Position numbers and translations under genes: made by a program. A stretch of DNA of 64,000 nucleotides from Tritrichomonas musculus (lineage: Eukaryota; Parabasalia; Tritrichomonadida; Tritrichomonadidae), in the NCBI GenBank assembly GCA_039105265.1, contig JAPFFF010000011.1, forward strand, positions 248,001 through 312,000, in the 5' to 3' direction. Under the pieces are notes generated by a model that was given only the letters and a program-made list of their open reading frames with translations, was not told the origin of the DNA and ran no database searches. Positions 27,753-64,000 of the stretch are shown in pieces. Numbering within the stretch: position 1 is the stretch's first letter; the number at the start of each line of letters is the position of its first letter.

Positions 27753-27776
27753 GGTGTGGTAGAATTCTACCAGACC
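27753..27776. repeat. 24-bp palindrome, copy 2
   Basis: Same core GGTAGAATTCTACC with one mispaired position in the outer arms. It lies just after the polymerase stop. The following bases, with CATGGAGATAACC, recur inverted near 37520 beside copy 3, so a longer repeat of about 60 bp is shared. Confidence 0.95.
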
Positions 27777-27834
27777 CGGATTTCATGGAGATAACCCCTA
27801 AATCCCTGGAACAGCAAAAATGCTTTCCCGATAA

Positions 27835-37472: not shown

Positions 37473-37483
37473 TGGTCTCAATC

Positions 37484-37507
37484 GGTCTGGTAGAATTCTA
37501 CCAGACC
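37484..37507. repeat. 24-bp palindrome, copy 3
   Basis: Perfect copy in the spacer between the integrase start and the small coiled-coil gene. It is followed by GGTTATCTCCATG (inverse of the segment after copy 2) and by another short palindrome, GCGGGAAATCCCG. Confidence 0.95.
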
Positions 37508-37568
37508 CAATATTTAGTGGTTATCTCCATGAAATCTGGGTCTGCGGGAAATCCCGTCGACCCCATAT

Positions 37569-41666: not shown

Positions 41667-42665
41667 ATGTTATATTACAAGCGCCTACAACCAACCCTTT
41701 TCGACTATACATCTATTGAATTATCAGACAGTTCCAGTGAAGATCCAATTGATTTTGATACATTCGATAGGTACCAGAAGCAGCAACCGGTTTCCCAGAG
41801 GTTTGATGTTAATGGGAGTTTCACTCCCACCCGCATCTTCGATGTAGATAAGGCTATGAGTGAGGCCTATTCCAAGAATAGGGATAAAATCACGAATGCA
41901 TCCATAAGGCCAATCGCTAATGGGATCTATGCGTGGTACAATACTTTGAACATACTGGTAGCATCACAAGGCAAAGGCAAGAGCCATACAGTAATTCGCG
42001 ATATCATTCAAATGAGTAGACTCAATAACGGGGGGTTCCACCTGATCGTGTATGTGAGTAAGAACGGTATTATAAATAATTCCACATTTGAATCTCAACG
42101 CGAGCTCATCAACCTGCCCATTGAGGTCGTCGCTGATAGTAATGCTGAACGGTATTTGAAGGAGCTCGATCTATGGAAGGAGTTGTACGCTAAATACTCT
42201 AGCGCAGGCTCCGATGGAGCATACAACAAATATAGCTCAGTTGGGAAGGTTACAATAGATGATTCCAAGCTGCAGCAGATGTTTGAGTTCCTCCATATCA
42301 GCAAACTCGGGAAACCCAATGTACCACTCAACACCATAATCCTGTGCGAGGACTTCATTAAGAGTAAGCTGTTGAAATCAGCATACTTCACAAACTATAT
42401 CACCCAGTTGCGTCATAAGAACTCAATCGTATACATCAATATCCAGTTCTTCAAGGGTGTGCCAACCGATTACAAAAATAACTGCACATCATTCTTCATA
42501 TTCAATGGGTTCTCACGGCAGAAACTCAATTACATATATCAGCAGGTGAGCATACCTTGTGAGTTCGAGGAGTTGTGGCAAAAATATAGGACATTATCTG
42601 GACATGATTTCATATTGGTGAACACAGTTGAACATGATATGCAAGTGGTGTACTCAAAGGTTTAG
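41667..42665 (+). CDS. packaging ATPase of C (FtsK/HerA-A32 type)
   Basis: 332 residues. Walker A ASQGKGKS at about 99-106 after a beta strand, Walker B NTIILCEDF near 225, and an arm with ITQLRHKNSIVYINIQFF resembling the downstream sensor region of genome-packaging ATPases. By family it pumps the element genome into capsids. The N-terminal 60 residues are acidic and Ser-rich. Its stop overlaps the convergent gene at 42662 by 4 bases. Homologue in A at 62208, which has an extra repeat-encoded run of about ten codons before Walker B. Confidence 0.9.
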   Translation: MLYYKRLQPTLFDYTSIELSDSSSEDPIDFDTFDRYQKQQPVSQRFDVNGSFTPTRIFDVDKAMSEAYSKNRDKITNASIRPIANGIYAWYNTLNILVASQGKGKSHTVIRDIIQMSRLNNGGFHLIVYVSKNGIINNSTFESQRELINLPIEVVADSNAERYLKELDLWKELYAKYSSAGSDGAYNKYSSVGKVTIDDSKLQQMFEFLHISKLGKPNVPLNTIILCEDFIKSKLLKSAYFTNYITQLRHKNSIVYINIQFFKGVPTDYKNNCTSFFIFNGFSRQKLNYIYQQVSIPCEFEELWQKYRTLSGHDFILVNTVEHDMQVVYSKV

Positions 42666-43225: not shown

Positions 43226-43542
43226 TGTCGTAGGTGGTCCATAAGTGGGCCATAGGTGTGCCATAAGTGGTCCATAAGTGGTCCATAAGTGGGCCATAGG
43301 TGGGCCATAGGTGTGCCATAAGTGGTCCATAAGTGGGCCATATGCGGCCTATTTTTGGAATTTGTATGGGCCCGAATATGGGTGTTTTATAAGCGTTTTG
43401 GGGTAGTATGCGGTATGTGGATTTTGAATATTGACCCAAATATAGGCCATTTTTGGAATTTATGGGGCCCAAATATGGGCCATTTAAAGGCGTTTTTGGG
43501 TGGGATTTATCTGGTCCCGATTATTGATACACTATCACTACT
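43226..43542 (-). repeat. right terminal inverted repeat of element C
   Basis: Inverse copy of 19612-19874, longer (about 317 bp) because the internal array of the 12-bp unit (CCACTTATGG or CCACCTATGG type, about 43230-43345) has roughly ten units here against about five on the left. The array is the main difference between the ends, which suggests slippage after or during replication. Confidence 0.93.
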
Positions 43543-43548
43543 AACGTT
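43543..43548. repeat. target site duplication of C, right copy
   Basis: AACGTT directly follows the terminal ACTACT of C and matches 19606-19611. Taking one copy of the hexamer as the original target puts the two polymerase halves back in one reading frame. Confidence 0.97.
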
Positions 43549-44756
43549 GCGTTAGTGGTGGAAGGACAATGACAGCTAACAATGAGAAACAATATGTTGA
43601 AGAGAGATTACAAGATTTTGATGCTGTATCTTTATATCCATCAGCAATGAGTATTATGTCTGGCGTGCCAAAAGGAATCCCAAAAGTAATTCCTCCTGAT
43701 ATATTAACAGAGGAGTTATTAGATTTTGACCAGTTCTTTGCAGAAATAAATATTAAGAAAATAAAATGCAAATCATCCATGCCATATAAATTTGGACAGG
43801 TATTTAGTAGAAATGAACAGGGCTCAAAAATATTTACCAACAATCCAATAGACCATTATTATATTGATAAAAGGGCTTTCATGGATTTGATGGAGTTTTA
43901 TGATTTTGATTATGAGTTCATTAGAGGGTATTATTTTGATGAAGGATTTAATAACAAGATTAATATCTTCATCGAGAAATTATTTAATCTTCGAAGAAAG
44001 TATCAAGATGCCAACAATCCATTGCAACAAACTATTAAATTACTCTTGAATTCCATCTATGGTAAATCTATATTAAAAGCAACTACGACAGAAACAAAAT
44101 GTATTCCAAAAAATAAAGCCATCAAATATATTTGGAAGAATTATAATTACATCACGGAGATAATAGAGAATAAGTCAATTGATAATGTGTATGTTAAAAA
44201 AGTAAAGCCCATAAATAATCATTTCAATCTACCACATTTTGGTGCTAGCGTTTTGTCGTGGAGTAAGCATTTGATGAATAGGGTAATAAGTTCAGCAGAG
44301 CAGAATGAAATAGATATTTATTATACAGACACTGATTCCATTCATGTTAAAGAAATAGATGTACCAAGGATTGCTGAGGTGTTTAAGAAAAAATATGGAA
44401 GAGAATTAATTGGCAAAAAGATGACACAGTTCCATTGCGATTTTGATTCATTTAATGGTGCTGTTGGCGGTGTACATTCTAGAAAATTAATTGCACTAGG
44501 AAAGAAGAGTTATCTGGATATATTAGTTGATGAAAAAGGGAATGAAGGATTACATATTAGATTAAAGGGCGTGCCTAAACAATGTATATTAAATAAAGCA
44601 AAACGAATGGGAATCACAGTTGAAGAGTTATATGAAAGAATGTACCAGGGAGAGGAAATAATTTTTAATCTTTTAGATGGTGCCAATTGTTTTAGAAAAT
44701 CATCTTCGTATCAACAGATTAATCTGCCAGTATTTGAGAGAAGAATCAAATTTTAA
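43549..44756 (+). pseudogene. PolB of element B, 3' part (interrupted by C)
   Basis: Carries the polymerase palm missing from the 5' part: motif A DAVSLYPSAM, motif B LLLNSIYGKS and motif C YTDTDSIH, all with the expected catalytic Asp residues. Counting one copy of the duplication, the frame runs straight on from the 5' part, about 1056 residues in total. An internal ATG at 43569 could start a separate palm-only product. Whether that is expressed is unknown, and it would lack the exonuclease. Confidence 0.93.
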
Positions 44757-49742: not shown

Positions 49743-50336
49743 TCAACACATATCAGAGAAAATATTATTACGTCTTCTACGAATAGGCTGAGGCTGAATT
49801 TGAGGTGGGGGAGGAGCAGGCTCTTCTGGTTCTTCTATGTCGTTGGGCTCCTGAATATATTGTGGCTGTGTATACCGATAATATGGCTTTCTCATTTGTT
49901 TTTGCACCACTTCTTTAATCATCTTTTTTTGTTCTTTCTTAGCTCTTTCATTTTTGAATTCTTCCCCTAATAATTTCAGCTGATTTAATATCTCGATATT
50001 TATTGTTGGGTCCTCGGTTCTTTGGGATGAATATGTTGGTTTAGGTCTTGTGATTTTTTTCGGCTGCAGAGCAGACCCTCGCTGAGGAGCAAGTGGTAGT
50101 GGCTTTACAGGAGGTTCCTCTGTAGACTCTACTGTTGGTTCTTCATCTTGTGGTTCAGTAGCTGCTGGTTCACTTGGGGGTTCAGCTGGTGGTTTATTTA
50201 AAGGTTCTTTACGAGGTCTAACTATATATTTTCCTTCTGTTTTGGTAGGAAAAACTTCATATTCTTCATCATCTCTACCATTTAACCATTTTTGTATCAC
50301 TTGTAATCTTTTGCTTTGAGGCACTCTTTTGCTCAT
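49743..50336 (-). CDS. Pro-rich basic protein of B
   Basis: 197 residues of mostly extended Pro/Glu/Lys-rich sequence, with a basic N-terminus (KRVPQSKRLQVIQKW), a central KPLPLAPQRGSALQPKK run, a helix near 120-145 rich in Lys/Glu, and a C-terminal PPPPQIQPQPIRRRRN tail. The LAPQRGSA string also occurs in A's unrelated 199-residue protein, encoded by a GCTCCTCA..GAGG palindrome. It might be a core or scaffold protein of the virion; no family is recognised. Confidence 0.65.
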   Translation of the reverse strand: MSKRVPQSKRLQVIQKWLNGRDDEEYEVFPTKTEGKYIVRPRKEPLNKPPAEPPSEPAATEPQDEEPTVESTEEPPVKPLPLAPQRGSALQPKKITRPKPTYSSQRTEDPTINIEILNQLKLLGEEFKNERAKKEQKKMIKEVVQKQMRKPYYRYTQPQYIQEPNDIEEPEEPAPPPPQIQPQPIRRRRNNIFSDMC

Positions 50337-50946: not shown

Positions 50947-51804
50947 CTATGACTCAAAGTAATATTTGTTGGCCGTTATATTGCAAATAAATTTATCGTG
51001 AGGTTCTCTATGCTGTAAATATTCTTTAACAGTATTTTTAATATTTAGATTGTTATTTGTTTGTTGAAGCAAAGATGTAAAATCTTCTTCTGAATATCCA
51101 CTATAACATATTAAATCTGTAGCCAATCTTTTGTCATTTATATGGACAAATCTAATTGTTTGAATAGCCATAATACAAGTAATATTATAGTGTCTCGTTT
51201 TGGTCAGTAGTCTTAAGAATTCAGTATTGTTATGTGTCAACAAATCACTTCCTGCACAGTCATCTAATATTATCAGGGTGTTGTATGGATATGATGAAGT
51301 TTGGTATTTTACTAGCTTGTTTGCTATATATACTATTCTATCATCTATTTCTTGAAGAGAGTGCTTATTTATTAGTCTCTGCATTTCTTCATTTGTTTCT
51401 TTCATTCTTGATAATACATGCTTTACCATTGCATAATATTTTATCTTTCTCTTTAGATGCTTCTTTAGGTAATCCATTAATTCTGCTTCGTTAAGATATA
51501 CTATTGGTGTCTTTACATTTTTACTCATCGCTTCTGCAGTTTTGTCCATCTTGCCGCTTGTTGAGCAGAAGATAATTTTTTGGTAGTATGGATGCTTAAA
51601 TAATCTCTCTGTGATTAAAATGTGTTTCCATATCCAATAACTCTTTCCTGCACCTGGTTTGCCTATAAGAAAATAGATACCATTAGTGCTAAATGGATAG
51701 GATGGATGTAATGGTTTCATTAACGCGGCTTCTATTTCTTTCTGGTTTTTCTTCATTGTCTTTTGTATTAAAGTTTCCACTTCTTTCATTATTTGTTTAG
51801 ACAT
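50947..51804 (-). CDS. packaging ATPase of B
   Basis: 285 residues. Walker A IGKPGAGKS at about 47-55, Walker B LIILDD at about 177-182, followed by LTKTRHYNITCIMAIQTIRF, the downstream strand and sensor region. It is clearly an A32/FtsK-type genome-packaging ATPase but distant from those of A and C, whose Walker B is IILCEDF. The N-terminal helix is Lys-rich. Same-strand neighbours are the integrase (51872) and the amphipathic protein (50395). Confidence 0.92.
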   Translation of the reverse strand: MSKQIMKEVETLIQKTMKKNQKEIEAALMKPLHPSYPFSTNGIYFLIGKPGAGKSYWIWKHILITERLFKHPYYQKIIFCSTSGKMDKTAEAMSKNVKTPIVYLNEAELMDYLKKHLKRKIKYYAMVKHVLSRMKETNEEMQRLINKHSLQEIDDRIVYIANKLVKYQTSSYPYNTLIILDDCAGSDLLTHNNTEFLRLLTKTRHYNITCIMAIQTIRFVHINDKRLATDLICYSGYSEEDFTSLLQQTNNNLNIKNTVKEYLQHREPHDKFICNITANKYYFES

Positions 51805-52901: not shown

Positions 52902-54236
52902 TTAAATGTAAAGCATCTTCTTGTATGGCATGAATTGCATTTCGATTTTAAATGATTCATTATTTGGCACTATGACTGGAATGTTATTATGTCGGCCTGA
53001 ATAGAATTCTATCCAAAATCTTTGGTCTGTTGAGTTCAGCTTAAAGTATTTGATAGGGTTGAAATATATCTGACTATTACCTAAATAATATTTATTTGAT
53101 TGTTCTGCTATTGATGAATATACAGCACAAGAATGCCTATCCCATACATTTTTGAATCTTAGCTCTCTCATCCACTTGCCTTCATACCTAATGATATTTC
53201 CATCTTTATCTATGACTGGTTTGCTTAAATCCATGAAATCCTCTGGATGGTTATTGAATGGCTCATAACCAATATTATAAACATCATCAAAATCAAATCG
53301 TCGATATGGCAATTTATTATCTGGTGGTCTAACTCTAAAGCTAATTGATAGGTCCACATAATAGTTTTTATATTTACTATCTTTGACTTGTTCACCATTA
53401 GTTGGTGAATAAAAGATTTCATAGAACATATTATTTTCATAATTGTAGAAGCCATCTGTTTGAACATCCCTTCGTCTTAAGCCAGTTTTTTCTTCATGGA
53501 ATGTGGGCTTCAATTCATTTAATTTGATTTCTTCTCTAATTTTTTCCATTTCTTTTTGAGCATTATATCTAGTGGCTATATTTATTTTATCTTCATCATT
53601 CTTTTTATCTAATTCTTTTTGTAGCTCAGCTTTAACTGTGTCATCTTTCTCATTAAATATTTTATTTGTGAGGTCTTCTATTTCTTTTTGCAAATTTTGA
53701 TATTCTGTAATTAAATTAGAATATTTGGTGCTTAATTTTAGTTCTTGGTTATCTAAATTGAAATTGTGGTCTTTATTGATTTTATCTGCTTCAATATTAA
53801 ACTCAACAAATTTGGCTTCAATAGCAGATTGTATATCATTCCACACCTCACTAAAATCATTTTCACGATTCAACCACGAGTTTATACTGATAAATACTTC
53901 ACTCTTATGGTCATCTTCAAGATACTTCCATAATTGTTCATATGAAAATAAGGGATTATCATGCTTGAGTTTATCATATTCGTCTCGTCTATATTTTCTT
54001 ACTCCAAGAGTAAATTCTATCTTTCTACTTCTGGCTAACATAAAAATATTTCTCACCCCAATAATTGATTCCCCTCTATTTGATGTACACCATTCTTGCG
54101 GGAAATTAAAGTAATATCTGTTTGGTTTGCTAGGGTCTTGTTCTCCATCTTCTAAAAAGTAGGCATATTCAATGGCAATCGGTGTTTGCTCTTCAGCTGG
54201 ATTTAGCGTCGGGTACATTTCAATCGTGGTAAACAT
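52902..54236 (-). CDS. unknown virion-like protein at the right end of B
   Basis: 444 residues. N- and C-terminal parts are beta-rich (YYFNFPQEWCTSN; FKIEMQFMPYKKML), separated by a coiled coil at about 170-250 (NLQKEIEDLTNKIFNEK). The closing stretch with RFWIEFYSG and FKIEMQFMPY is reminiscent of a jelly-roll end, so a minor capsid or vertex protein is possible. The start codon and first 13 codons lie inside the right terminal repeat, and the left terminal repeat bears a truncated copy of them. TCATTAATGACTAC just upstream may hold a trichomonad-type initiator. Confidence 0.7.
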   Translation of the reverse strand: MFTTIEMYPTLNPAEEQTPIAIEYAYFLEDGEQDPSKPNRYYFNFPQEWCTSNRGESIIGVRNIFMLARSRKIEFTLGVRKYRRDEYDKLKHDNPLFSYEQLWKYLEDDHKSEVFISINSWLNRENDFSEVWNDIQSAIEAKFVEFNIEADKINKDHNFNLDNQELKLSTKYSNLITEYQNLQKEIEDLTNKIFNEKDDTVKAELQKELDKKNDEDKINIATRYNAQKEMEKIREEIKLNELKPTFHEEKTGLRRRDVQTDGFYNYENNMFYEIFYSPTNGEQVKDSKYKNYYVDLSISFRVRPPDNKLPYRRFDFDDVYNIGYEPFNNHPEDFMDLSKPVIDKDGNIIRYEGKWMRELRFKNVWDRHSCAVYSSIAEQSNKYYLGNSQIYFNPIKYFKLNSTDQRFWIEFYSGRHNNIPVIVPNNESFKIEMQFMPYKKMLYI

Positions 54237-54448
54237 TTTTTTGTAGTCATTAATGACAAACTTTTTGTGAGGAGAACTTTTTGAACAGGAAACTTTTTGA
54301 ATTATTAACTTTTTGAATACGCGAACGATAGAACTTTTTGAATGTCTGGCTTTTTGAATGGGGTCCAGGGGCGGGAGCCCTTGGAGTAGTCTCGAGCGTA
54401 GCGAAGAGGGTAGGCTGTGTAATTAGACACGGCCTACCGTATACTACT
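54197..54448 (-). repeat. right terminal inverted repeat of element B
   Basis: Reverse complement of 6699-6950. It contains the start codon and first codons of the gene at 52902-54236, so that gene's promoter lies wholly within the terminal repeat. The T/A-rich CAAAAAGTT direct motifs are at about 54255-54355. The outermost bases read ...TATACTACT. Confidence 0.95.
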
Positions 54449-54581
54449 TATATTTCTTGTTTCTGCTTGATACAAATTCAAGTGGCAACGTAAATTCTGT
54501 TGATTGAGTGTGGAAATAACGTTTTGTTATGGGCTGTTTTACATTGCTTGTTGCAACATTCTTGATATTATTCATAAGCAT
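54449..54581 (-). pseudogene. 5' part of A's minor-capsid-like gene, cut off by element B
   Basis: Minus-strand ATG at 54581 (a second at 54575) opens a frame of about 44 codons containing KRYFHTQSTEF and SSRNKKY. These match the N-terminus of the intact homologue at 35893-36225 (KRYFHTQTTEF, SRNKKY). The frame runs to the right end of element B; the remainder of the gene is at 6443-6698. The start codon is 14 bp downstream of the integrase stop at 54595, the same tandem arrangement as in C. Confidence 0.9.
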
Positions 54582-54594
54582 TTTTTCATAGAAA

Positions 54595-55980
54595 CTAAAT
54601 GTTAAAATACTTAATGTAATCTTCGTTTAAGTCTCCAAATGAATTACATATGAATTTCGTATATATAATAGGTACTTCAATAATAGCTTTTTCAGCATCA
54701 GTCATACGTTTCCTACCTTTAGGCAGCTTTGCTGACCCAAGCTTTGCTTGATGATGCTTTTCTTGTGGTTCATCTTTTTTAACAGTCTGATATGGTTTTA
54801 ATAACTGGCAGATTACATTTCCATTACGATACTCTAGAAACTCAGCAATTTCATTAAATACTCTTCTACGCTTCTCATGCTTTTTTTGCGTTTTGCTTTT
54901 ATCGAGATGAACTAATATAATATTACCTCTATTATAAGATAACAACCCCTTAAAACGTTGTTTATCATTGATTTCCCGCAATTTCATTTGCATTTTCCTG
55001 ATATATCTCCACTCCAAATCAACATTGTTTTGCATTTGAGCTGGGGTATAATATATGTACTTCGTTGGTTTTACAAGATTCTTGTCATAAAAATCTGATG
55101 GGTCATAATCAAAATTCTTAAATCGAAGAGAACTATGTGGGGTGTTATTATAGTAATCAACCATTTGTCTCATCAAATTATAATCACTTAATCTTCGCTC
55201 ATCTAACCCAAAAGCATTTCTCAGAGTTCTTATAACAGAATCAACATTTTTGTGAGCTAACGCATATGGAGAATCATTAATAATGAATCTTATAGGATAG
55301 AAATCGGTGATTGAATCTATTGTATTTTCCCAAAACTGGATGTCTTCAAATTGTAAATTGAGTAGCCTTTGGAAACGAGGTTTATAATAGTCGCTTTTTT
55401 TAAGCAGTTTTTTAAGAGTTTCCAGTTTGTGGTTCACGAGTATTTTACTTAATATTTTATCAAACTCTTTTATCCTTGCTTCTTTAATTACAGCGCTCAA
55501 GTCAAATATCAAAGTAGTTTCTCCTGTTGAAAACCAAATGACAACACTATTATCTTTCATCTCTTTTAATCCAGGTTCTCCATCACATTTGATAGTTTTG
55601 AATAGAAATTGTGGATATCTTATTATAATTCGTTCAAGGGAAAACCATATATTTCCTTTATCCTTTACAGGTTCAACGATTAGGTATCTTGTATTTGTAT
55701 TGATGAGAACCAAATATATTTTATTTTCTTTTGTCAAATCTCTAGTATAGTATTTGCTAAACATCAAATCTACCTCCCAACAACCTGGTTCATTAGAGAA
55801 ATTTGGTTTTGATAATTCTTTGCATGATTTCAACTTGAAGTCAGGAATAAATGGTTCTGTTTTGATATCACTTTTAAAGAAAGGTTTTATGTAATTATCA
55901 ATGTATTTATACTTGGATTTGAAAGGGTAATTGAGTAAGGAGTTGTATTCTTTATCGTAGATTCTTACTGATTTAGTCAT
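54595..55980 (-). CDS. rve-type integrase of A with enlarged core
   Basis: 461 residues, homologue of 36229-37455. Asp71 (WEVDLMF) and Asp133 (IKCDGEPG) match. The third acidic position is Asp at about 247 in HKNVDSVIRTLRN, so 113 residues separate it from the second, against 49 in C and 35 in the canonical core. The extra ~65 residues are helical and charged. YNNTPHSSLRF follows. A Lys/Gly run near 410 (QAKLGSAKLPKG) coincides with an AAGCTTTGCTTG repeat at about 54723-54752. The intact frame suggests it was functional until recently. Confidence 0.9.
   Translation of the reverse strand: MTKSVRIYDKEYNSLLNYPFKSKYKYIDNYIKPFFKSDIKTEPFIPDFKLKSCKELSKPNFSNEPGCWEVDLMFSKYYTRDLTKENKIYLVLINTNTRYLIVEPVKDKGNIWFSLERIIIRYPQFLFKTIKCDGEPGLKEMKDNSVVIWFSTGETTLIFDLSAVIKEARIKEFDKILSKILVNHKLETLKKLLKKSDYYKPRFQRLLNLQFEDIQFWENTIDSITDFYPIRFIINDSPYALAHKNVDSVIRTLRNAFGLDERRLSDYNLMRQMVDYYNNTPHSSLRFKNFDYDPSDFYDKNLVKPTKYIYYTPAQMQNNVDLEWRYIRKMQMKLREINDKQRFKGLLSYNRGNIILVHLDKSKTQKKHEKRRRVFNEIAEFLEYRNGNVICQLLKPYQTVKKDEPQEKHHQAKLGSAKLPKGRKRMTDAEKAIIEVPIIYTKFICNSFGDLNEDYIKYFNI
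54723..54752 (-). repeat. in-frame AAGC-type repeat in A's integrase gene
   Basis: Contains GCAGCTTTGCTGACCCAAG and GCTTTGCTTG, two small inverted pairs. Translated QAKLGSAKL, close to the QAKLGPA run encoded by the copies at 5454 and 62726. It lies where A and C integrases cannot be aligned. Confidence 0.7.
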
Positions 55981-56085
55981 TTTCTAATGAAAAAGTCTTG
56001 TTTTACAACAAAAATGTGCAAAAAAATGGGCTCAAATCATCTAAAGGTGAAGAGGTGAATTTTCACCTTTGAACTCACCTCCCAA

Positions 56086-56982
56086 TTATTTTCTATTTAC
56101 ATACATGGTTCTATGTACATTTGATATAGTGAACAACCCTGTTTCTTCAATTTTTCTTTTCAATTCATCGAATGTTAAATTGATTCTGAAAGAAGATTTA
56201 TACTTTGATTGGACATCTTTTAACAGGAATCTATCTATCGAAGGGTAATTTTTGAGTAAGAAATCTTTCATATCATATCTGTTTTCATCAGGCATTTCCA
56301 TGTATTGTTTCTCAATTTCTTGCTGCTCTCTTTGCTCTTCTCTCATCCTCTCTATTTGAAATAGACTGTAATTGTATTTTCGTCTTGCTGTATCACATTT
56401 TGAGCATGATTTATTGGTTTGTGCATTATTATTGGCAATCATACCGTTAAGTCGTATGATATTTTCAGAGGCTTCTTTGACACTACATTTATCAATAAAT
56501 CCAAACGAAAAGTCATCGGGGTCATCACATAGTAATGCATCTGTTGGATAAACGTTATATGGTTGTCCAAATTTATCTTTCCTAATGATACTTAGGGCGG
56601 TCATGAGAGCGAAAGAGATGAACGATTGATAGTGGAGGTACTCGTCCGACTTGTATATATCGACTATATTACTGTATATTTTATCACACTTTTCGTTCAT
56701 TGAATTGTGATTACAGTGATATCCAATCTTATCATAGTTTACCTTCCGAATGAATTTTTTGATTTCTGCTGAATCGGTTTTCAATTCTTCGATTTGTTCA
56801 AAAATGGGTACGTCTGGCTTTGTCTGTGTGATGTCATTTAGTTTTGGTAGGGAATGAAATATTGTAAAAATATCACGTATGAGATTTGTATTTGTTTCAA
56901 CATTTAGCTTGTATTTGATGGGGTCGTAATTATCATTCAGCAAATCATTTTTCAATTCCATCTTCTTTCCCTCAAAGCTCAT
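56086..56982 (-). CDS. unknown protein of A
   Basis: 298 residues from ATG at 56982; a GTG upstream (57000) is less likely. Not recognised, and absent from C in the window. Helical N-terminal half, a Cys/His group (HCNHNSMNEKC) near 105, CSKCDTARRKY near 200 that may bind zinc with it, a charged coiled region (REEQREQQEIEKQY), and a C-terminal ~60 residues (FLLKNYPSIDRFLL ... VHRTMYVNRK) that could be a winged-helix domain. It is next to KilA-N, which suggests a DNA-related or regulatory role. A hairpin-forming spacer (56043-56090) follows its stop. Confidence 0.7.
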   Translation of the reverse strand: MSFEGKKMELKNDLLNDNYDPIKYKLNVETNTNLIRDIFTIFHSLPKLNDITQTKPDVPIFEQIEELKTDSAEIKKFIRKVNYDKIGYHCNHNSMNEKCDKIYSNIVDIYKSDEYLHYQSFISFALMTALSIIRKDKFGQPYNVYPTDALLCDDPDDFSFGFIDKCSVKEASENIIRLNGMIANNNAQTNKSCSKCDTARRKYNYSLFQIERMREEQREQQEIEKQYMEMPDENRYDMKDFLLKNYPSIDRFLLKDVQSKYKSSFRINLTFDELKRKIEETGLFTISNVHRTMYVNRK

Positions 56983-57000
56983 AGAATAGAATTCAGACAC

Positions 57001-57251
57001 TTCTTTGAAAAACTACATTTAGTAAAATTGTCTTGGGCAAGAGTCATTGCAGTAATGCTGGTTTGACTCTGTGGGTGATTTGTTGTTGCTGGAGCGAGGG
57101 ACATTTGGTCTAAAAATAAAAAATGATAAAAAAATGAAAAGGTGAAGATGAAGGTGAAAACTCACCTGTTCACCGCTTGCTATGCAAGAGTCTGCAATGC
57201 AGCCTACAGACGAAAAAAGATGACAAATCGAACAAAAAAATACTCTAAAGC
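57001..57251. other. spacer between two A genes with palindromic patch
   Basis: About 250 bp with no credible gene. It includes GCTTGCTATGCAAG and CTGCAATGCAG around 57176-57206, similar in style to the repeat found in the ATPase gene, and scattered A-tracts. Confidence 0.6.
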
Positions 57252-58028
57252 TTATTGGCTCATACTGTTAAAATATTGTTCAATCAAATCGTGGAGCTTA
57301 TTGAGATGCTCTATTTTGATATCAACACAGTTACCACTATTGGAAACCTTATAATCATCTGTTCCAAATGATGCTTTTATAATGTTCTTAATGTTTAAAT
57401 TTGGTGTCATACTAATAGGAAGGTCATCTTTGAAGTAAAATCTTTCGTTTTCATTATTGTAATGATTAACAACTTTTCTCCAAGTACTCTTATGACGACG
57501 ACACAAATGAAGCCTAATGAAACCTTCTTTATTAATATCCTCTTTGTAAATCAAATAACGGTAATCATTCTTGTGATTTTCTGGTACTGCACGTGGTTTG
57601 AGTTCATCAATTTGTTGCTGATGTTGTTTGCGTTCACGTTCAAATTGGGAGTCTAAAAGTTTAGCAATATAAATTGCATATTTTCTACTCGCCCAGCATG
57701 CAAAATCATTAACGAGAAGTCTATGAATATATGTCCCTTTCAAATCGTTTGGTAAATTTGGTCTTTCTTGTATAATTTCTGGGTCGCAGCAATTTTGCTG
57801 TGACCGGATTTCATCAATAATTTCTTTTGTTTCGGCTAATTGTTTCCATCGATAAGCTTGTTTATTTGATTGGCATGCAGTTATTATACTTTGCATTTGG
57901 TACATATCATCTTTGATTGAATGTATGATGCGTAAATGTGCATTATATTGAATAAATTCGTAGTCATCATTAATTCGTACGACAAAGTCGTGGGACCAAT
58001 TGGTCCTTTCTACGTTTATTGAAGCCAT
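57252..58028 (-). CDS. KilA-N domain protein of A
   Basis: 258 residues, homologue of 20344-21111. YEFIQYNAHLRIIHSIKDDMYQ, then GTYIHRLLVNDFACWASRKY gives the KilA-N signature (about 25-130). The C-terminal half keeps RAVPENHKNDYRYLIY and IRLHLCRRH. The segment between the two KilA-N halves differs from C, where it is palindrome-encoded. In C this gene is at the element end beside the terminal repeat; in A it lies between the integrase region and the capsid gene. Likely DNA-binding regulator. Confidence 0.85.
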   Translation of the reverse strand: MASINVERTNWSHDFVVRINDDYEFIQYNAHLRIIHSIKDDMYQMQSIITACQSNKQAYRWKQLAETKEIIDEIRSQQNCCDPEIIQERPNLPNDLKGTYIHRLLVNDFACWASRKYAIYIAKLLDSQFERERKQHQQQIDELKPRAVPENHKNDYRYLIYKEDINKEGFIRLHLCRRHKSTWRKVVNHYNNENERFYFKDDLPISMTPNLNIKNIIKASFGTDDYKVSNSGNCVDIKIEHLNKLHDLIEQYFNSMSQ

Positions 58029-58080
58029 TTGTTCTGGATATAAAAAATTATTTTAAAAATAGATTTGCAAAAAAATCAAC

Positions 58081-58096
58081 CCTCGGAATTCCGAGG
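58081..58096. repeat. 16-bp perfect palindrome
   Basis: CCTCGGAATTCCGAGG lies in the spacer between the KilA-N and capsid genes of A. Like the C palindromes it is centred on GAATTC but the arms differ. Confidence 0.9.
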
Positions 58097-58119
58097 TTAG
58101 AAAATATTCGAAAATCAAT

Positions 58120-60126
58120 TTACTCATTAACTTGACTGCCAGCTGGCGTTTCATCATCAACATATTCCAATCCATTCAAACTAAGTTTAAAGTAGGTATC
58201 TCTTGTGAGCCATAATTGAGTTGGAGGTGGATGCACTGTACCTTCTTCGTTAACATTATAGTAAGTATCATTTGGACCTGTATATATTGGTTGACCATTT
58301 ACTTGAACTTGAATATTTCCAAATCCACCATCCAAACCATCATAGCAATATCCTGCTGAAGCACGTTCTGTTTGAATATTGAAAACAAAGCTAGAAGCAT
58401 CACTTAAAGTATTTCTATAACGAACTCCATTTGCATCATTCTTTGGCATTGTCATACTATCTTCAAATTCTTTTGTGCATTGTAATGTGATTCCATCGAG
58501 GTCTCCAGCAGTTAATTGATTTTCAAAGAATCTTGCACCAATTGTGCTAACATTTTCATCTGGGAAGTTCTTACCACCAATATTGAGATAACAATTTTGA
58601 TATACCGGATTTTCGAAAACAGTGAGGTCATTATGATGCTTTGGAAACATAATTGACATTGTAGTAACATTAATTAATGGGATATTCAAAGTAGATTTGA
58701 TACCATTTGCTGCAGGAGCAATTGGGAATGAATGGTAATCAACTTTTTGGGATGGTATTATAATTCCTTCACGAAGAATATTTTCAATACCTCTGCGAGT
58801 AGATTCACAGACACCATATCCTTGCATATTTGATTTACATAATGTGATTGTCATTCTGTTTACAGTTAATGTGGCTTTCTGTGATGAATATGTTTCGTTG
58901 TAAAGTTGTGATTTAGCATCATGAATTGCTTGAAGAGTCTGTTTAGCAGAAACAATTGGTGTTTTAACAATTTGCCAAGCATAATATCTCCCATTTTTAT
59001 CAGCATGATTTAATGGTGGTAATGTTACAGCAGGATTATGAACACAAATTTCTTCATCAGTTGCACCTGGTTGTAATCCAAATTCTTCAAATTCTTCCTT
59101 TGTGTAACTGAAATTGAATTCCAAATCTGTAAGAATATCAGTGTAACCAGTACTTCCATCATCATTATCCCATTGTTCACCAATTCGATATTGAATCTTA
59201 TACTTGATAGGTGATGGGGTTGGTTCAGGAGATGGGTCTGGTGTTGGAGATGGGTCTGGAGATGGAGCACCAGGACCTGGAATTATAGCTTCATTACCAA
59301 TTTGTGTAAATTGATGTTTCAAGTGACCGCGGGCCTTTATTTCTTTCAATCTTTCTAATTCTGCAGATGAGATACTATCATTATCTTCTAGATAAGCTTT
59401 TGTTTCAGCAACAGTATAAGGGTCTATAGCGGCCCAAACTAATCCTGCGGGTGATACTTGGAAACGAATTGATAAATCACCTATGATACCATTAGGGAAT
59501 AAATCGAATGCTTGTAATGCAAGTAAATCATCGAATGGTATGTTTAAATCAAATTCAACTTGGGATTTACCATTAGATTTGAATGAATTGAGGTTAACAT
59601 AAGCACCAGCAACAGTCTGTGAATAATTTGAAACGTTTTCCCAAAGTGAATGCACAAAACGCCTACGTTTCTTCTCAGTCTCTGGTTTAACAGTGGAACA
59701 CAAAAACCCTTCACGAATACATTCATTTTGCTGATATCCAATGTTTACATTATTATGGAGAATCTCCAAACGGTCAAACAATTGATTGGAAGATTTGAGC
59801 CCGACAAATAATTTGTAGAAGTTATTTGGGTCATCAATTTGTTGTAATTTTGCTAAATCAGTATTGAGTTGTAAATCTAGTTTGATGTGAAAGGTAAGGA
59901 ATCCTTTATCAACATCACTAATGAAGTGGTCAGGATGTGTTAAACTGATTTGGGAATACTGTCCTTGATGAAATGGTGCAGGTTGGTCATGACAGTCAAC
60001 AGTTCTGAATGAAAATGAGCGTGTACCATCATTAGTGTTAATCATTTCACGCATCTTATTAAAAGTGTCAAGTACATTCCCAGCTTCGATTTTGTAATTA
60101 TGTGCTCTTTCGTTGCGATACAACAT
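58120..60126 (-). CDS. major capsid protein of A (double jelly roll)
   Basis: 668 residues, close homologue of 38872-40824. The first ~275 and last ~250 residues match C very well (ALQAFDLFPNGIIGDL; RFQVSPAGLVWAAIDP; ASAGYCYDGLDGG). From about 280 to 415 there is a Pro/Ser-rich hinge (SPDPSPTPDPSPEPTPSP) and a variable domain that aligns poorly with C. Shell-forming subunit by family. It is divergent from the small MGIGIFKK gene, 51 bp between starts. Confidence 0.9.
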   Translation of the reverse strand: MLYRNERAHNYKIEAGNVLDTFNKMREMINTNDGTRSFSFRTVDCHDQPAPFHQGQYSQISLTHPDHFISDVDKGFLTFHIKLDLQLNTDLAKLQQIDDPNNFYKLFVGLKSSNQLFDRLEILHNNVNIGYQQNECIREGFLCSTVKPETEKKRRRFVHSLWENVSNYSQTVAGAYVNLNSFKSNGKSQVEFDLNIPFDDLLALQAFDLFPNGIIGDLSIRFQVSPAGLVWAAIDPYTVAETKAYLEDNDSISSAELERLKEIKARGHLKHQFTQIGNEAIIPGPGAPSPDPSPTPDPSPEPTPSPIKYKIQYRIGEQWDNDDGSTGYTDILTDLEFNFSYTKEEFEEFGLQPGATDEEICVHNPAVTLPPLNHADKNGRYYAWQIVKTPIVSAKQTLQAIHDAKSQLYNETYSSQKATLTVNRMTITLCKSNMQGYGVCESTRRGIENILREGIIIPSQKVDYHSFPIAPAANGIKSTLNIPLINVTTMSIMFPKHHNDLTVFENPVYQNCYLNIGGKNFPDENVSTIGARFFENQLTAGDLDGITLQCTKEFEDSMTMPKNDANGVRYRNTLSDASSFVFNIQTERASAGYCYDGLDGGFGNIQVQVNGQPIYTGPNDTYYNVNEEGTVHPPPTQLWLTRDTYFKLSLNGLEYVDDETPAGSQVNE

Positions 60127-60177
60127 TTATGATACAAAAAAAGTACTTATTACAGGTCTTTTTTCATTATAAAAACA

Positions 60178-60432
60178 ATGGGTATCGGAATCTTCAAGAA
60201 AATGAAGAATGCTTTTAAATCAGTTGGCAATACAATTAAGAATGTTGCAACTAAAGTTGGTAAAGCACTTCCTAAAGTTGTTGAAATTGGTAAAAGAGTT
60301 ACCAGTGCGGTAAAGCCTGTTTTAGGTGATATACCTCTTATTGGAGACACTATAAGAGCAATTGACACAGGGTTGAATGTTGTCGATAGAGGAATGAGAA
60401 TTGGTAAGAGCTTGATAAATGAAGTAGAATAA
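60178..60432 (+). CDS. small amphipathic MGIGIFKK protein of A
   Basis: 84 residues, homologue of 38573-38824. Basic amphipathic N-terminal helix, then alternating Lys/Val segments (ATKVGKALPKVVEIGKR) and a Gly/Pro hydrophobic stretch (LGDIPLIGDTIRAIDTGL). Conserved length and position beside the capsid gene favour a virion component, perhaps membrane-disrupting. TTTTTTCATTATAA upstream combines a T-tract with a TCATTA initiator-like site. Confidence 0.78.
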   Translation: MGIGIFKKMKNAFKSVGNTIKNVATKVGKALPKVVEIGKRVTSAVKPVLGDIPLIGDTIRAIDTGLNVVDRGMRIGKSLINEVE

Positions 60433-60458
60433 AAACAAAAAAATTTTTTTGAAAATAA

Positions 60459-60905
60459 ATGGAATTGGAAGTAATTAACGAAATAACTGAAGAAACAAAA
60501 AACTTCAAATCCATCGAAGAATTTAATTTGTTCTACCAGAAGCACAAGGACGAGATGAATGGACGCACCACACAGTACCTCAATAGAGTATATAAGATTA
60601 TTACCCCCGATGGTGTTGAATATAGAATAACAAAAAAGAATTGTTCGAAAGAAGGAAATAAGAGAGTTGGGGGTGATATATTTCTAAAAAAAGTGTTTAA
60701 AAAGGAAGACCTAAAAGAGTTAGAACAAGATGTTATCAGAGCTGATATTGAAAGTGTAAAGGATGAGATTAAGCAGATGATATCGCGCATTCATGCGAAT
60801 GAGCTTCTAGCGAATCGTATTGAGCAATCAGAGAAAAAAATAATAGAACTAACATCAACTGTGAATCAGATAGCTAAATATATTAATACTATGAATAATA
60901 TGTAG
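60459..60905 (+). CDS. conserved coiled-coil protein of A
   Basis: 148 residues, homologue of 38088-38522: SIEEFNLFYQKHKD, TQYLNRVYKIITPDG, EYRITKK and a C-terminal coiled coil (~95-145). It is on the same strand as the preceding small gene, 26 bp apart. Function unknown. TTTTTTTG lies upstream of the ATG. Confidence 0.8.
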   Translation: MELEVINEITEETKNFKSIEEFNLFYQKHKDEMNGRTTQYLNRVYKIITPDGVEYRITKKNCSKEGNKRVGGDIFLKKVFKKEDLKELEQDVIRADIESVKDEIKQMISRIHANELLANRIEQSEKKIIELTSTVNQIAKYINTMNNM

Positions 60906-60906
60906 C

Positions 60907-61140
60907 TTAAATCTTACTATTAATTGGGACCACTGAATGGTTCAAAGAATATGTATGATAGTTGAGTTTTTTTGTAGTTATTGGAGGCTTTTCATGGCTT
61001 ATAGTTCCCTTCAAATCTCTCTTCTTGATTATAGGTGCAGAATTGATTCTGGTACGCTCTTTTTGCATTTCCAATTGAAGTCTGTCGTAGAAATTCATTC
61101 TTTTATCATCTCTTATCGTGCGTCTCTGTTGAAAAGACAT
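60907..61140 (-). CDS. small basic protein of A with NSKI tail
   Basis: 77 residues, homologue of 37837-38091. Arg/Lys-rich with RRTIRDDKRMNFYDRL and the shared C-terminus SLNHSVVPINSKI. Divergent from 61157 with only 16 bp between the start codons. Function unknown. Confidence 0.72.
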   Translation of the reverse strand: MSFQQRRTIRDDKRMNFYDRLQLEMQKERTRINSAPIIKKRDLKGTISHEKPPITTKKLNYHTYSLNHSVVPINSKI

Positions 61141-61156
61141 TTTTGTATTGAAATAA

Positions 61157-61387
61157 ATGACTGAATTAAGTGATTATAAGAGGGAAATTCCTGAACTTAA
61201 AAGAATCAAACGAGCGCTAAAAGAGAAATGCTACGACTATAAACAGCATCTCAATAACGTAAAATCAGGTATGCTTGGCTCAAATGGATTAGCAGTAAGA
61301 GAATCGTTAATTGAGGATATTGAATCTTTAAAAGAGAAAGTTCACAAACTCGAAAAAGAATTTGATAGATTAACCAATAAAGAGTAA
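61157..61387 (+). CDS. small coiled-coil protein of A
   Basis: 76 residues, homologue of 37569-37802, sharing MLGSNGLAVRESLIEDI exactly. Helical with a C-terminal heptad region (SLKEKVHKLEKEFDRL). Function unknown. The whole promoter must lie within the 16-bp divergent spacer or the neighbouring gene. Confidence 0.8.
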   Translation: MTELSDYKREIPELKRIKRALKEKCYDYKQHLNNVKSGMLGSNGLAVRESLIEDIESLKEKVHKLEKEFDRLTNKE

Positions 61388-61398
61388 GATGTATAGAG

Positions 61399-61410
61399 AT
61401 TTTTTTGCAC
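61399..61410 (+). promoter_or_regulatory. T-tract promoter-like motif before 61415
   Basis: ATTTTTTTGCAC ends 4 bases before the ATG at 61415 and corresponds to ATTTTTGCACT before the homologue at 40867 in C. Confidence 0.65.
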
Positions 61411-61414
61411 TGAA

Positions 61415-62014
61415 ATGTCTTTGAATAAAGCACGTATATTGAGCTCAGAAAACGATGCAAGTGTAAAACAGAGTCAAGGAACAAATATAGAAATCAAATT
61501 AGCTCCTCAAAGAGGAAGTGCAGTAGCATATCCACAAATACCGCAACCACAAAATGTAAATTTTACTATGCCGCGAACGGAGTTCGAGTCAATGAAATTG
61601 CCGACCCCACAGGAGGGGTTTGCCTCTCAATACATACCTCCAACCAACAATCTTACCCAAGAAAGGGGGCTTGCAGATTTAGGAAATGAGTTGGATACAC
61701 TTGAAAAGAAAAACAAATTTTTGGAGTTGCTTGTTGGGATGTATGAGAATAACCCATTAAAGGTAAACTCTTATGTGGTATGTAAATCGACATTATTAAT
61801 GGATATGATAAAGCTGTTGACAGATTGTGATAAAGTTGATTTGGTTATTGAAGATGAAGAACCTGGTTGTTGTGTTGCTAGTGTTGCAAAACTGATAAAG
61901 ATTGATAAGATATTAATCACTAAAGATGGTAAATCCGAAGAACTAAAATACTGCTACAATCATGTCTATACAGAGTTTGTCAAATACGCAATATCACTCA
62001 AATATTGTTGCTAA
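61415..62014 (+). CDS. conserved Maverick protein of A, N-terminal ARILSSENDASVKQ
   Basis: 199 residues, homologue of 40867 (C) and 45987 (B). The N-terminal 17 residues are nearly identical to those of C. The middle (~30-85) is variable and includes KLAPQRGSAVAYP and PTPQEGFASQY, each over a small palindrome. The C-terminal ~100 residues are conserved (MYENNPLKVNSYVV; a GCC Cys pair; YNHVYTEFVKYAISLKYCC). Function unknown. Confidence 0.8.
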   Translation: MSLNKARILSSENDASVKQSQGTNIEIKLAPQRGSAVAYPQIPQPQNVNFTMPRTEFESMKLPTPQEGFASQYIPPTNNLTQERGLADLGNELDTLEKKNKFLELLVGMYENNPLKVNSYVVCKSTLLMDMIKLLTDCDKVDLVIEDEEPGCCVASVAKLIKIDKILITKDGKSEELKYCYNHVYTEFVKYAISLKYCC

Positions 62015-62072
62015 TTACTTTTTCTTAATAAGAAATGACTTACTTTTAGTAAGGCTTTTTTTCGAAGGAAAA

Positions 62073-62204
62073 ATGTTTTGTGAGATACTTTTATGTATGA
62101 TTCTAGCTGTTAATGTTATGGAGTTATTTGTGATAATATCAGCATTGAAACCTGATGAACCACCTGAATTAAGTGAAGAGATGCGACAGAAACTTTATTG
62201 CTAA
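62073..62204 (+). CDS. short membrane protein of A
   Basis: 43 residues from ATG at 62073: a hydrophobic segment (ILLCMILAVNVMELFVII) and a tail with EPPELSEEMRQKLYC matching the C protein at 41498. A longer upstream frame overlaps the previous gene and lacks a counterpart. TTTTTTTCG lies upstream of the ATG. Its stop is 3 bp before the ATPase start, so the two may share a transcript. Confidence 0.78.
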   Translation: MFCEILLCMILAVNVMELFVIISALKPDEPPELSEEMRQKLYC

Positions 62205-62207
62205 GAA

Positions 62208-63116
62208 ATGCTTAAACCTACAAAGTTTGATTATTCGACAGTGTTTTTTTCAGATTCTAGTGATTCAGAAGAGCTATTTACTGAACCTCAGGTAAAACCC
62301 TTTTTTAACATCGACATTGAGATGAGTAAAGCGTATAAAAAAAATGAATCCAAGATATTGAGTGAATCTATTAGACCAATTGCTAATGGTATCTACGCAA
62401 ATTGTAATTCATTAAACATCATTGTTGGAGCTCAAGGAAAGGGTAAATCTCATATTGTATTGCGTGATACTATTCAAATATCAAGAATCCCTGGTGCTGC
62501 TCATTTAATTGTTTATATTAGTAAGAACGGAGTGATAAATGATTCAACATTTGAGGCCCAGCGAGAATTGATTAAACTTCCTGTGAAAGTCATATCTGAT
62601 TCAAATGCTGAGAATTACTTAAAAGAACTTGATTTATGGAAAGAATTGTATGATAAATACGTTAATAATAATACTCGATTAGATGAAGAGAAGATAAATA
62701 AGATGCTCTCCTTTTTATGTATTTCACAAGCGAAGCTTGGGCCTGCTATGCAGTCACAGTTGAATTTAATAAAATCTCCTCTTAATACTATCATATTATG
62801 TGAGGATTTCATTAAATCAAAGCTATTGAAATCAGCTTATTTTACCAATTATATCACTCAATTACGGCACAAACATTCTATTGTCTATGTTAATGTTCAA
62901 TTCTTTAAAGCAATACCGACGGATTACAAGAATAATTGTACATCTTTCTTCATATTTAATGGATTCTCACGACAGAAAATGGGTTATATATACCAACAAG
63001 TTGTTATGCCAATTGAATTCGAAGATTTGTGGAGGAGATATTGTTGTATGAAAAATCATGATTTCATCTTGGTGAACACACGAGAAGGTAGTATAGAGTT
63101 TATTAGTTGTGTGTAA
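62208..63116 (+). CDS. packaging ATPase of A
   Basis: 302 residues, homologue of 41667-42665. Walker A GAQGKGKS at about 74-81, Walker B NTIILCEDF near 195-203, then YITQLRHKHSIVYVNVQFF. The N-terminus is shorter than in C. Just before Walker B there is a repeat-encoded run, QAKLGPAMQSQ, where C has only a short SKLGKPN loop. The insertion is in frame and lies in a loop, so activity may be kept. Confidence 0.9.
   Translation: MLKPTKFDYSTVFFSDSSDSEELFTEPQVKPFFNIDIEMSKAYKKNESKILSESIRPIANGIYANCNSLNIIVGAQGKGKSHIVLRDTIQISRIPGAAHLIVYISKNGVINDSTFEAQRELIKLPVKVISDSNAENYLKELDLWKELYDKYVNNNTRLDEEKINKMLSFLCISQAKLGPAMQSQLNLIKSPLNTIILCEDFIKSKLLKSAYFTNYITQLRHKHSIVYVNVQFFKAIPTDYKNNCTSFFIFNGFSRQKMGYIYQQVVMPIEFEDLWRRYCCMKNHDFILVNTREGSIEFISCV
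62726..62760 (+). repeat. in-frame short palindromic repeat inside A's ATPase gene
   Basis: Reads CACAAGCGAAGCTTGGGCC then TGCTATGCAGTCACAG. Same unit as 5454-5491 on the other strand. Aligning the ATPases of A and C places it as extra sequence of about ten codons between FLCIS and the PLNTIILCEDF Walker B strand. Confidence 0.88.
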
Positions 63117-63146
63117 AAAAATATGGTATATTCAAAGTATATTTTT

Positions 63147-63605
63147 TTAGTCTAATACAATATTTTGATGAGTACCCTTAAATATTGTTGGTTCTGGTAT
63201 ATCATATTTCTCTCTTAGCTTTAATAACATATCGCGGTTTGTTTTGTTGATTCGTTCAATAGAATAATTGTAATATTCATGTTCTTTATATACTTGCTTT
63301 TCTGTATTACCGTTAACAAAGAATTCTAATGAATTACAGTTAATTCTTCTCCTTGTATTAGATGTTAAAACGACATGCTCAAACCCCATTTCTTTGATTT
63401 TATCTGGGTAGAATCTAATTGTTTTATCCGGTGTTTGTAGTGAAATGTATAACACTTTCGCAATAAAACTCGATTTGTTGATAATAGGATATTTTTCGCA
63501 AAGCAGTGTGAAATCACATTTATTGAAATCATCAGGGTTTTCCAATAGTGAGATAAGATTGTTGATATATTCGAAAACTCTAAGTGATTTGCTATTGCAA
63601 GCCAT
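63147..63605 (-). CDS. conserved end-proximal protein of A (unknown)
   Basis: 152 residues, homologue of 42662-43138 and 46997-47449: KCDFTLLCEKYP, RFYPDKIKE, NTRRRINCNSLEFFVNG, YYNYSIER and FKGTHQNIVLD. It is the last gene before the presumed right end of A, the same place as in C. Function unknown; no protease triad is evident. Confidence 0.8.
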   Translation of the reverse strand: MACNSKSLRVFEYINNLISLLENPDDFNKCDFTLLCEKYPIINKSSFIAKVLYISLQTPDKTIRFYPDKIKEMGFEHVVLTSNTRRRINCNSLEFFVNGNTEKQVYKEHEYYNYSIERINKTNRDMLLKLREKYDIPEPTIFKGTHQNIVLD

Positions 63606-63878
63606 TTTGTAATGAAATAAAAATTTAAAAAAATATTTGATTTACTGTTTGGCTGTCAATTGGAGGCTCAAATTATTCGACTCTAAAAAAGTGCTAGAAA
63701 TCATTGAGTTTCATAGTTGGGGCTCACAGTGTTGTAGACAGTGAGCTAGAAAACCTTGAGTTCTGAAAATGGGTTAGAAAATAAGGAAAATCGCATGAAA
63801 CCCTTGAGCGACTAACATGGAGTAGACCGTCAGATGTGATTAATTATCTGACCCCCAATACGCACATACTACACTACT
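63606..63878. repeat. presumed right terminal repeat of element A
   Basis: About 270 bp without genes. It contains loosely repeated motifs (GCTAGAAA...TTGAGTT near 63690 and 63750; GGTTAGAAAA near 63770) and ends CACATACTACACTACT at 63878, matching the ...ACTACT ends of B and C. The next six bases, ATCGAT, would be the target duplication. The left repeat is outside the window, so this is a prediction. Confidence 0.5.
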
Positions 63879-64000
63879 ATCGATATAGTGTAAGTTATGA
63901 AATTGTTCCCGAAGCCACTTATTCTTAGGATTTCCTGCTCTGTTTTTCCTTAGTGGGAATTGTTGGTAGTAAGCAAGGTCATGTGGGAATTTAGAGACGG
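63879..64000. other. possible host flanking sequence
   Basis: If A ends at 63878, these 122 bases are the chromosome (or yet another element) into which A inserted. I see no gene, repeat or RNA signal in them. Confidence 0.4.

Follow-up and report, generated by a model that had tools for sequence, protein, structure and literature searches.

A family of 27-nucleotide double-hairpin units, probably mobile, in Maverick transposons of Tritrichomonas musculus

Introduction

The system closest in behaviour to the unit described here is GC42, one of the GC clusters of yeast mitochondrial DNA, for which PMC4478555 describes flanking AG repeats, presence or absence at its sites, and shuffling. GC42 is 42 nt long, mitochondrial and mostly intergenic, whereas the present unit is 27 nt long and is found in Mavericks, both in genes and in non-coding DNA; its stems vary in concert and the triplet duplicated at its edges is mostly YCR. 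With the GC clusters in general and with mitochondrial double-hairpin elements it shares GC-rich hairpins and dispersed copies. The short flanking direct repeat is AG or ACT in the GC clusters and has 3 nt, mostly YCR, here. Our units lie outside mitochondrial DNA, in Mavericks on contigs of up to 11 Mb in a genome of 193 Mb. To our knowledge, trichomonads have no mitochondrial genome.

The double-hairpin elements of Allomyces and the repetitive hairpin-forming elements of sponge mitochondria are also mobile and hairpin-forming, those of Allomyces having two hairpins by name. Both are mitochondrial, and the Allomyces elements are said in PMC2800124 to be without flanking duplications, whereas matching flanks are the rule here. 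The Rickettsia palindromic elements (RPEs) are described as bacterial sequences of about 150 bp, in ten families, that insert in frame (PMC10969869). An earlier note on this DNA had compared the repeat with them, and the likeness is one of idea: palindromic mobile sequence does lie in frame within unrelated protein genes, but in place of a single long palindrome of about 150 bp there are 27 bp with two separate hairpins, in a eukaryotic Maverick. REP sequences and palindrome-associated elements moved by Y1 transposases (IS200/IS605, RAYT) resemble the unit, as we read it, in being short hairpins mobilised in trans, with a fixed short target. Many REPs bear a GTAG or CGTC tag, according to PMC3733652; the 36 units aligned below have no constant tag and are bordered by a duplicated YCR instead. 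With MITEs the unit shares a target duplication of fixed 3-bp length, though some units lack an exact match. MITEs have terminal inverted repeats in common with an autonomous transposon; at the ends of the 36 units only C...G is seen.

For Trichomonas vaginalis, PMC7845603 gives about 5,000 copies of Mavericks, totalling 73 Mb. A literature search mostly outside subscription papers turned up no description of elements of this kind for Trichomonas or for Mavericks, in agreement with the earlier note, which knew of no such family for Mavericks.

Results

Nested Mavericks and an exact 33-mer

The window, that is, the whole stretch of 64,000 nt that was analysed, holds three nested Mavericks, C inside B and B inside A. 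Element A is present as two halves (1-6698 and 54449-64000) parted by element B, whose inverted ends (6699-6950 and 54197-54448) are 252 bp long, 100% identical and flanked by a TATAT repeat. B is in turn interrupted by element C, whose own inverted ends occupy 19605-19860 and 43294-43549. Two genes of element A are of particular concern here. The packaging ATPase ORF (62208-63116, plus strand) encodes 302 residues, and p331 (5390-6385, minus strand) is a 331-residue ORF with no assigned function; neither gave a Pfam match at E 0.01. The predicted fold of the ATPase matches the packaging NTPase B204 of STIV and viral packaging ATPases, and residues 175-187 of the AlphaFold model have pLDDT values below 50 (mean for the protein, 67.9), which would place the unit in a loose, low-confidence loop of a packaging ATPase. 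Among the other ORFs, 54595-55980 is called integrase-like by eye, a label to which Pfam gives no support, and 61415-62014 likewise has no supporting Pfam match. ORF 6961-10749 of element B gave weak coiled-coil matches only, the polymerase match falling instead at 17649-19613. A KilA-N ORF is also present.

The earlier note had reported a peptide run, QAKLGPAMQSQ, in A's ATPase that is missing from C's, and this is so: the run is absent from the corresponding loop of C's ATPase (41667-42665) and also from that of B's (50947-51804). The DNA behind it is the 33-mer CAAGCRAAGCTTGGGCCTGCTATGCAGTCACAG, found at 62727-62759 on the plus strand and at 5453-5485 on the minus strand, in codon phase 0 and encoding SQAKLGPAMQSQ in both places. 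Since the halves of element A are parted by B, the two copies belong to two genes of one Maverick. With up to 3 mismatches allowed the window has no further copy, and 100 dinucleotide shuffles gave none. The repeat of about 35 bp placed at 62726-62760 and 5454-5491 by the earlier note is thus real and in the same frame, although the mobile unit proper is 27 bp (62727-62753); its second copy is indeed in a different gene, p331, but one of the same element A, on the minus strand, with the unit at 5459-5485.

A search of the 193-Mb genome, again with up to 3 mismatches, found the 33-mer at 67 places (reversed control, 0). All 67 were read; 59 lie in the p331 tail and 8 in the ATPase loop. The exact 33-mer is therefore restricted to two gene families, and taken alone its distribution would argue against a spreading element. 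What is dispersed is the architecture of the hairpins and not the sequence: units with different letters occur far beyond these two copies and these two families.

Architecture of the unit

The typical unit is 27 nt long and consists of a hairpin of 5+3+5 nt, a 3-nt spacer that is usually RGY, and a second hairpin, of 4+3+4 nt. Forms of 28 and 29 nt are also found. The unit is bordered by a 3-bp direct repeat. In the ATPase gene the left copy of the repeat, TCA, is at 62724-62726, followed on the plus strand by the first hairpin (CAAGC-GAA-GCTTG, 62727-62739), the spacer GGC (62740-62742), the second hairpin (CTGC-TAT-GCAG, 62743-62753) and the right copy of TCA (62754-62756). The flanking duplications that the earlier note had asked about are thus present at the unit edges.

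Further units were seen in the window. Near the C-terminus of p331, CAAGC-AAA-GCTTG GGC CTGC-TAT-GCAG (5459-5485, minus strand) has flanks TCG/TCA. The integrase-like ORF holds CAAGC-AAA-GCTTG GGT CAGC-AAA-GCTG at 54724-54750 on the minus strand (flanks CAT/CCT, no exact repeat), and ORF 61415-62014 holds CGAAC-GGA-GTTCG AGT CAAT-GAA-ATTG at 61574-61600 on the plus strand, with flanks CCG/CCG, a unit that 7 of the 30 copies aligned possess. Opposite to ORF 6961-10749 in element B lies CAAGC-AGA-GCTTG AGC CAGC-AGA-GCTG (10301-10327, plus strand, flanks CCA/CCA), and between the listed ORFs of element A lies CTTGC-TAT-GCAAG AGT CTGC-AAT-GCAG (57176-57202, plus strand, flanks CCG/CCT, no exact repeat). 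A 29-nt variant, CAAGC-AGA-GCTTG GGT CTTGC-GAA-GCAAG, is found in B outside the listed ORFs (17140-17168, minus strand, flanks CCA/CCA). A covariance model of the unit, run on the window, added two weak and possible 30-nt variants on the minus strand, one in ORF 49743-50336 of B (50064-50093, flanks CCA/CCG, E 0.016) and one in ORF 2-2839 of A (2463-2492, mismatched flanks, E 0.012).

Among 112 architectures built of 5- and 4-bp stems, 5-3-5/3/4-3-4 is the commonest in the window, with 7 matches against a mean of 1.31, and when an exact 3-bp flank repeat is required it has 3 against a mean of 0.04; next in rank is the architecture of the 29-nt unit at 17140, whose two strands are both counted. 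Six of the seven strict matches look genuine, the seventh, at 52999, being AT-rich and without the repeat. The six have a GC content of 0.44-0.59, compared with 0.28-0.44 in 2-kb blocks, and as single-stranded DNA all fold as drawn, with energies only modestly better than those of shuffles (z -0.67 to -1.65). A single triloop hairpin was considered as the unit and rejected: hairpins with a 5-bp stem and a 3-nt loop number 28 in A (expected 31.4) and 39 in B (expected 44.7), and the slight excess in C (39, expected 30.7) is equally seen for neighbouring loop lengths.

Pairing and target duplication across the genome

A scan for 5-3-5/3/4-3(or 4)-4 with no sequence requirement found units whose letters differ widely and of which many have 3-nt flanks that match, together with some AT-rich matches that look like chance. 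Such a letter-free scan selects for pairing and so is unable to test it. For pairing we used degenerate genome patterns in which the closing bases, the spacer class and the flanks were fixed and the five inner pairs were free. The matches listed (16 of 16 and 100 of 124 places) gave 39 rows with 36 distinct 27-mers. Among these, 171 of the 180 free inner pairs are Watson-Crick and one more is a wobble, compared with 45% when partners are taken from other units and 9-24% when they are slid; counted by pairs over the same 36 listed units, 96.9% of cells are paired. Cells changed on both sides number 77; shuffles average 27.0, none of 500 reaching 77, and slid partners give 1-14. Pairs that show a double change of any kind number 6, which is on a level with shuffles (5.4). 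The rows of this alignment are related, so that the changes are not independent events.

By flanks, the degenerate unit is found at 83 places as TCA/TCA, 124 as CCR/CCR, 14 as TCA/CCR and 4 as CCR/TCA, whilst reversed-pattern controls were 0 for every flank class and for the other degenerate searches. These 225 places, of which a minority was read in context, include copies carried along by the copying of Mavericks, and the counts are not numbers of independent insertions. Judged against 66 of 131 listed ATPase places, 43 of the 83 TCA/TCA places are in ATPases, a further 7 lie no more than 20 kb from one, and the other 33 are elsewhere. In the CCR class the third flank base is identical on both sides in 29 of 33 distinct rows among the matches listed (Fisher p 1.3e-5). 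A triplet that varies and is nevertheless copied indicates a duplication and not a fixed end of the unit. The first target base also goes with the first spacer base. Where the target starts with T, in the 6 distinct TCA units, the spacer starts with G in all 6, the search pattern having excluded A as the second base of the unit; where it starts with C, in 33 distinct CCR units, the spacer starts with A in 25 and with G in 8. Exact flank repeats are missing from the units at 54724, 57176 and 5459 and from a 30-nt insert at locus L084.

Clusters of 10-12 units, mostly of the 28-nt form, were noticed at G000:C12:5623261-5624628 and at G000:C62:802419-803838 and 819504-820871, the latter two being inverted with respect to each other and separated by about 17 kb, as would be seen if they lay within the inverted ends of a Maverick.

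Beyond this genome, a metagenome protein near the ATPase (P0015) has, at the protein level, both the peptide of the second ATPase site described below and a loop of the relic type, and more distant metagenome relatives have other loop insertions. A spread into IMG/VR was considered and rejected: the 17-mer CAAGCRAAGCTTGRGYC occurs there in 18 stretches, with a fully paired second hairpin in none of the 18 (at most 2 of 4 pairs), so the matches look like chance; no relative of the ATPase protein was found in IMG/VR.

Filled and empty sites

Of 57 A-type ATPase places counted by eye, 53 were read; one split copy was left out, and the unit-bearing places L049, L051 and L052 fall outside the 53. 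Between conserved flanks the loop is a mosaic. It is plain and short in 29 of the 53, so that the run is not shared by all homologous ATPases; 7 have the intact TCA[27]TCA, where the empty allele has a single TCA; and the remaining 17 have relics or other inserts, among them CAGGCAAAG and AGACTTCGTCTCGG. The relics suggest decay by partial deletion. In a more distant group of ATPases (L119-L123) the loop is as short as in the plain form, and for this reason the empty state is probably ancestral.

Some 40 nt upstream of the loop lies a second site, filled in 31 of the 53 and empty in 22; five additional loci from the more distant group (L119-L123) could not be anchored at this site. Here the unit is in reverse orientation with TGA duplicated, reading CAAGC-AAA-GCTTG GGC CAGC-AGA-GCTG on its own strand. 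In the window this site is empty (TGA at 62684-62686, coordinates by eye). None of the 53 ATPases has intact units at the loop and the second site together. L070 has a unit at a third site, CAGGC-AAA-GCCTG GGC CTGC-TAT-GCAG, and upstream of the ATPase ORF a site that is empty in the window (62146-62148, plus strand, again by eye) holds another unit in L090 and L091, with TGA duplicated. The occupied and empty sites that the earlier note proposed to look for thus exist in near-identical ATPases, at more than one site and with the unit in either direction.

The same picture is obtained from insertions and deletions in an alignment of 30 near-identical ATPase regions of 4 kb. Among indels of at least 9 nt the commonest class is exactly 30 nt, with 394 pairwise cases representing 12 distinct combinations of insert and flank at 7 alignment positions. 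Six of the seven positions hold double hairpins, the seventh (column 5150) not being a clear unit. The six comprise the loop and second sites of the ATPase, the TGA site upstream of its ORF, a site in L084 that lacks an exact repeat, and two sites in ORF 61415-62014, one with CCG and the other with CCG that is CGG on the unit's own strand. In addition, L069 has an imperfect unit with TGA at its right edge. Other large indels in these regions are of 34-41 nt and 52 nt in non-coding DNA and of 24 and 27 nt; some of them, within a range of 24-54 nt, lack the architecture. A non-coding insert of 34-41 nt with GACTTACTTT(TT)AGTAAGGCTTTTTTTCGAAG occurs at two different places (L066-L095, columns 1567-1572, and L057).

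The p331 tail carries the unit in 61 of 62 A-type copies, the remaining copy having no tail. No clean empty allele was found there, four relatives at 57% being too divergent in the tail. Indels of at least 9 nt in the p331 regions comprise one upstream insert of 33/34 nt and one of 37 nt, plus small ones of 9-10 nt.

Coding frame

Insertion of 27 nt with a 3-nt duplication adds 30 nt, which keeps the frame and adds ten residues. Units lie in frame in unrelated protein genes: the ATPase, p331, the integrase-like ORF, ORF 61415-62014 and ORF 6961-10749. Units oriented with the gene are at phase 0 in the ATPase loop, in L070, in ORF 61415-62014, in a 471-residue frame of L084, in p331 and in the integrase-like ORF; phase 1 is seen at a second site of the integrase-like ORF, in L163. 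The three units that lie opposite to open frames are all at phase 2. The single frame claimed by the earlier note thus applies to its two copies, both phase 0, but not to this phase 1 site or to the opposite strand. Its spread into coding DNA stands as far as genes carry units; non-coding sites carry them also. The 28-nt form, which would break a reading frame, occurs at 50 places in the genome. Six copies were fetched, four without an open frame over 101 bp and two with one of the six frames open, which in this small sample (n = 6) fits non-coding sites. The loci L157 and L162 adjoin B-like inverted-end sequence.

The second site in the integrase-like ORF is empty in the window, near 54778-54785, and in L163 (G000:C6:6173744-6173844) it holds what appear to be two tandem units.

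Discussion

We consider it likely, with good confidence, that these units are mobile DNA elements of one family, non-autonomous and very small. The unit has definite boundaries, a duplicated target, filled and empty alleles, both orientations and pairing that is conserved whilst the letters change; mobility as such we infer from the alleles. The earlier idea of a tiny mobile sequence that adds a tolerated peptide is supported by the 3-bp duplication, by filled and empty alleles at more than one site, by units in either direction and by sites in non-coding DNA, the movement again being deduced.

A unit would insert, in either orientation, at a 3-nt target that is mostly TCA, CCA or CCG on its own strand, and the target would be duplicated, implying a cut staggered by 3 nt. 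The moving form may be single-stranded DNA or RNA. Its folded strand might be recognised by shape and inserted by a nuclease or integrase supplied in trans, be it from a Maverick or from some other transposon. Selection would then retain insertions that fall in loose loops and tails, and subsequent partial deletions and exchanges would leave relics, which would account for the hypervariable loop of the ATPase. A bolder reading, for which we would put the chances at a little under even, is that a virus-like transposon here has a hyperparasite of its own, only 27 nt long, recognised by shape and not by sequence and moved in trans. Since its length and the target duplication add up to a multiple of three, it could persist within the crowded coding DNA of Mavericks and would continually feed new ten-residue peptides into the packaging ATPase and other proteins. 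On that reading it would rank with the smallest elements known to duplicate their target on insertion.

Several other origins can be weighed against a mobile element. The simplest would be a single copying event between two genes of the same Maverick, by gene conversion or micro-duplication, or else a short peptide motif common to two proteins. The restriction of the exact 33-mer to two gene families at all 67 places is what this would give, as is the identity of peptide and frame in both genes. It is nonetheless rejected as highly improbable, since units of the same architecture exist in reverse orientation, in non-coding DNA and with different letters, and the edges of the unit coincide with a 3-bp duplication. 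It is also improbable, though less so, that the hairpins arise by mutation, template switching or fill-in repair making inverted repeats in situ and copying them to nearby breaks. Partial modules make a mosaic of the ATPase loop in 17 of 53 copies, and in p331 of L139 one hairpin is exchanged for another at a fixed site (GAGAC-TTC-GTCTC for CAAGC-GAA-GCTTG), both of which would suit such a process. Local template switching would not be expected to give a recurrent length of 27 nt, a 3-bp duplication or one and the same unit at loci far apart.

The two remaining possibilities, each of which we regard as unlikely, concern the manner of movement. The unit could be an extremely short MITE, moved by a DDE transposase that makes 3-bp duplications. 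Harbinger-type transposases make such duplications, at the target TWA. The 3-bp duplication at the unit edges agrees with this, and Harbinger elements are listed for T. vaginalis in PMC7845603. Here, however, the targets are YCR and not TWA; the 36 aligned units have no terminal inverted repeat beyond C...G, the end C and G themselves being required by the search pattern; and a length of 27 bp would seem to leave too little room for two ends that each bind a transposase. Alternatively, and overlapping with the explanation that we prefer, a folded RNA of 27 nt could be copied by reverse transcription, or become attached to DNA ends in the course of repair. In PMC2800124 and PMC4478555 a route through RNA is suggested for the double-hairpin elements of Allomyces and discussed for GC42 of yeast, whereas the 3-bp duplication and the target preference seen here indicate a staggered cut in DNA.

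If the units are mobile elements as we propose, they would extend mobile double-hairpin elements, described in mitochondrial DNA in the papers cited, to the transposons of a 193-Mb eukaryotic genome. They would show that a mobile sequence can be made compatible with coding by its length alone, and would explain why a loop of a viral packaging ATPase is hypervariable, which is otherwise puzzling. The many near-identical Mavericks with filled and empty sites would provide a system in which insertion, decay and selection could be measured.

Other small repeats in the window

Three further repeats were noted. Upstream of p331, at about 6400-6445, a 33-nt insertion that is present or absent contains a GAGAAC/CAAGAAC-AGA-GTTCTTG hairpin and looks like another small hairpin element. 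In element C the hairpin word CCCC-GGA-GGGG, possibly another small repeat family, recurs at 28462-28517 and 34616-35196, within ORFs 27835-30393 and 34193-35854. Element C also has near-palindromes around GGTCTGGTAGAATTCTACCAGACC, at 20556-20588 inside ORF 20344-21111 and, between listed ORFs, at 27751-27783 and 37482-37514.
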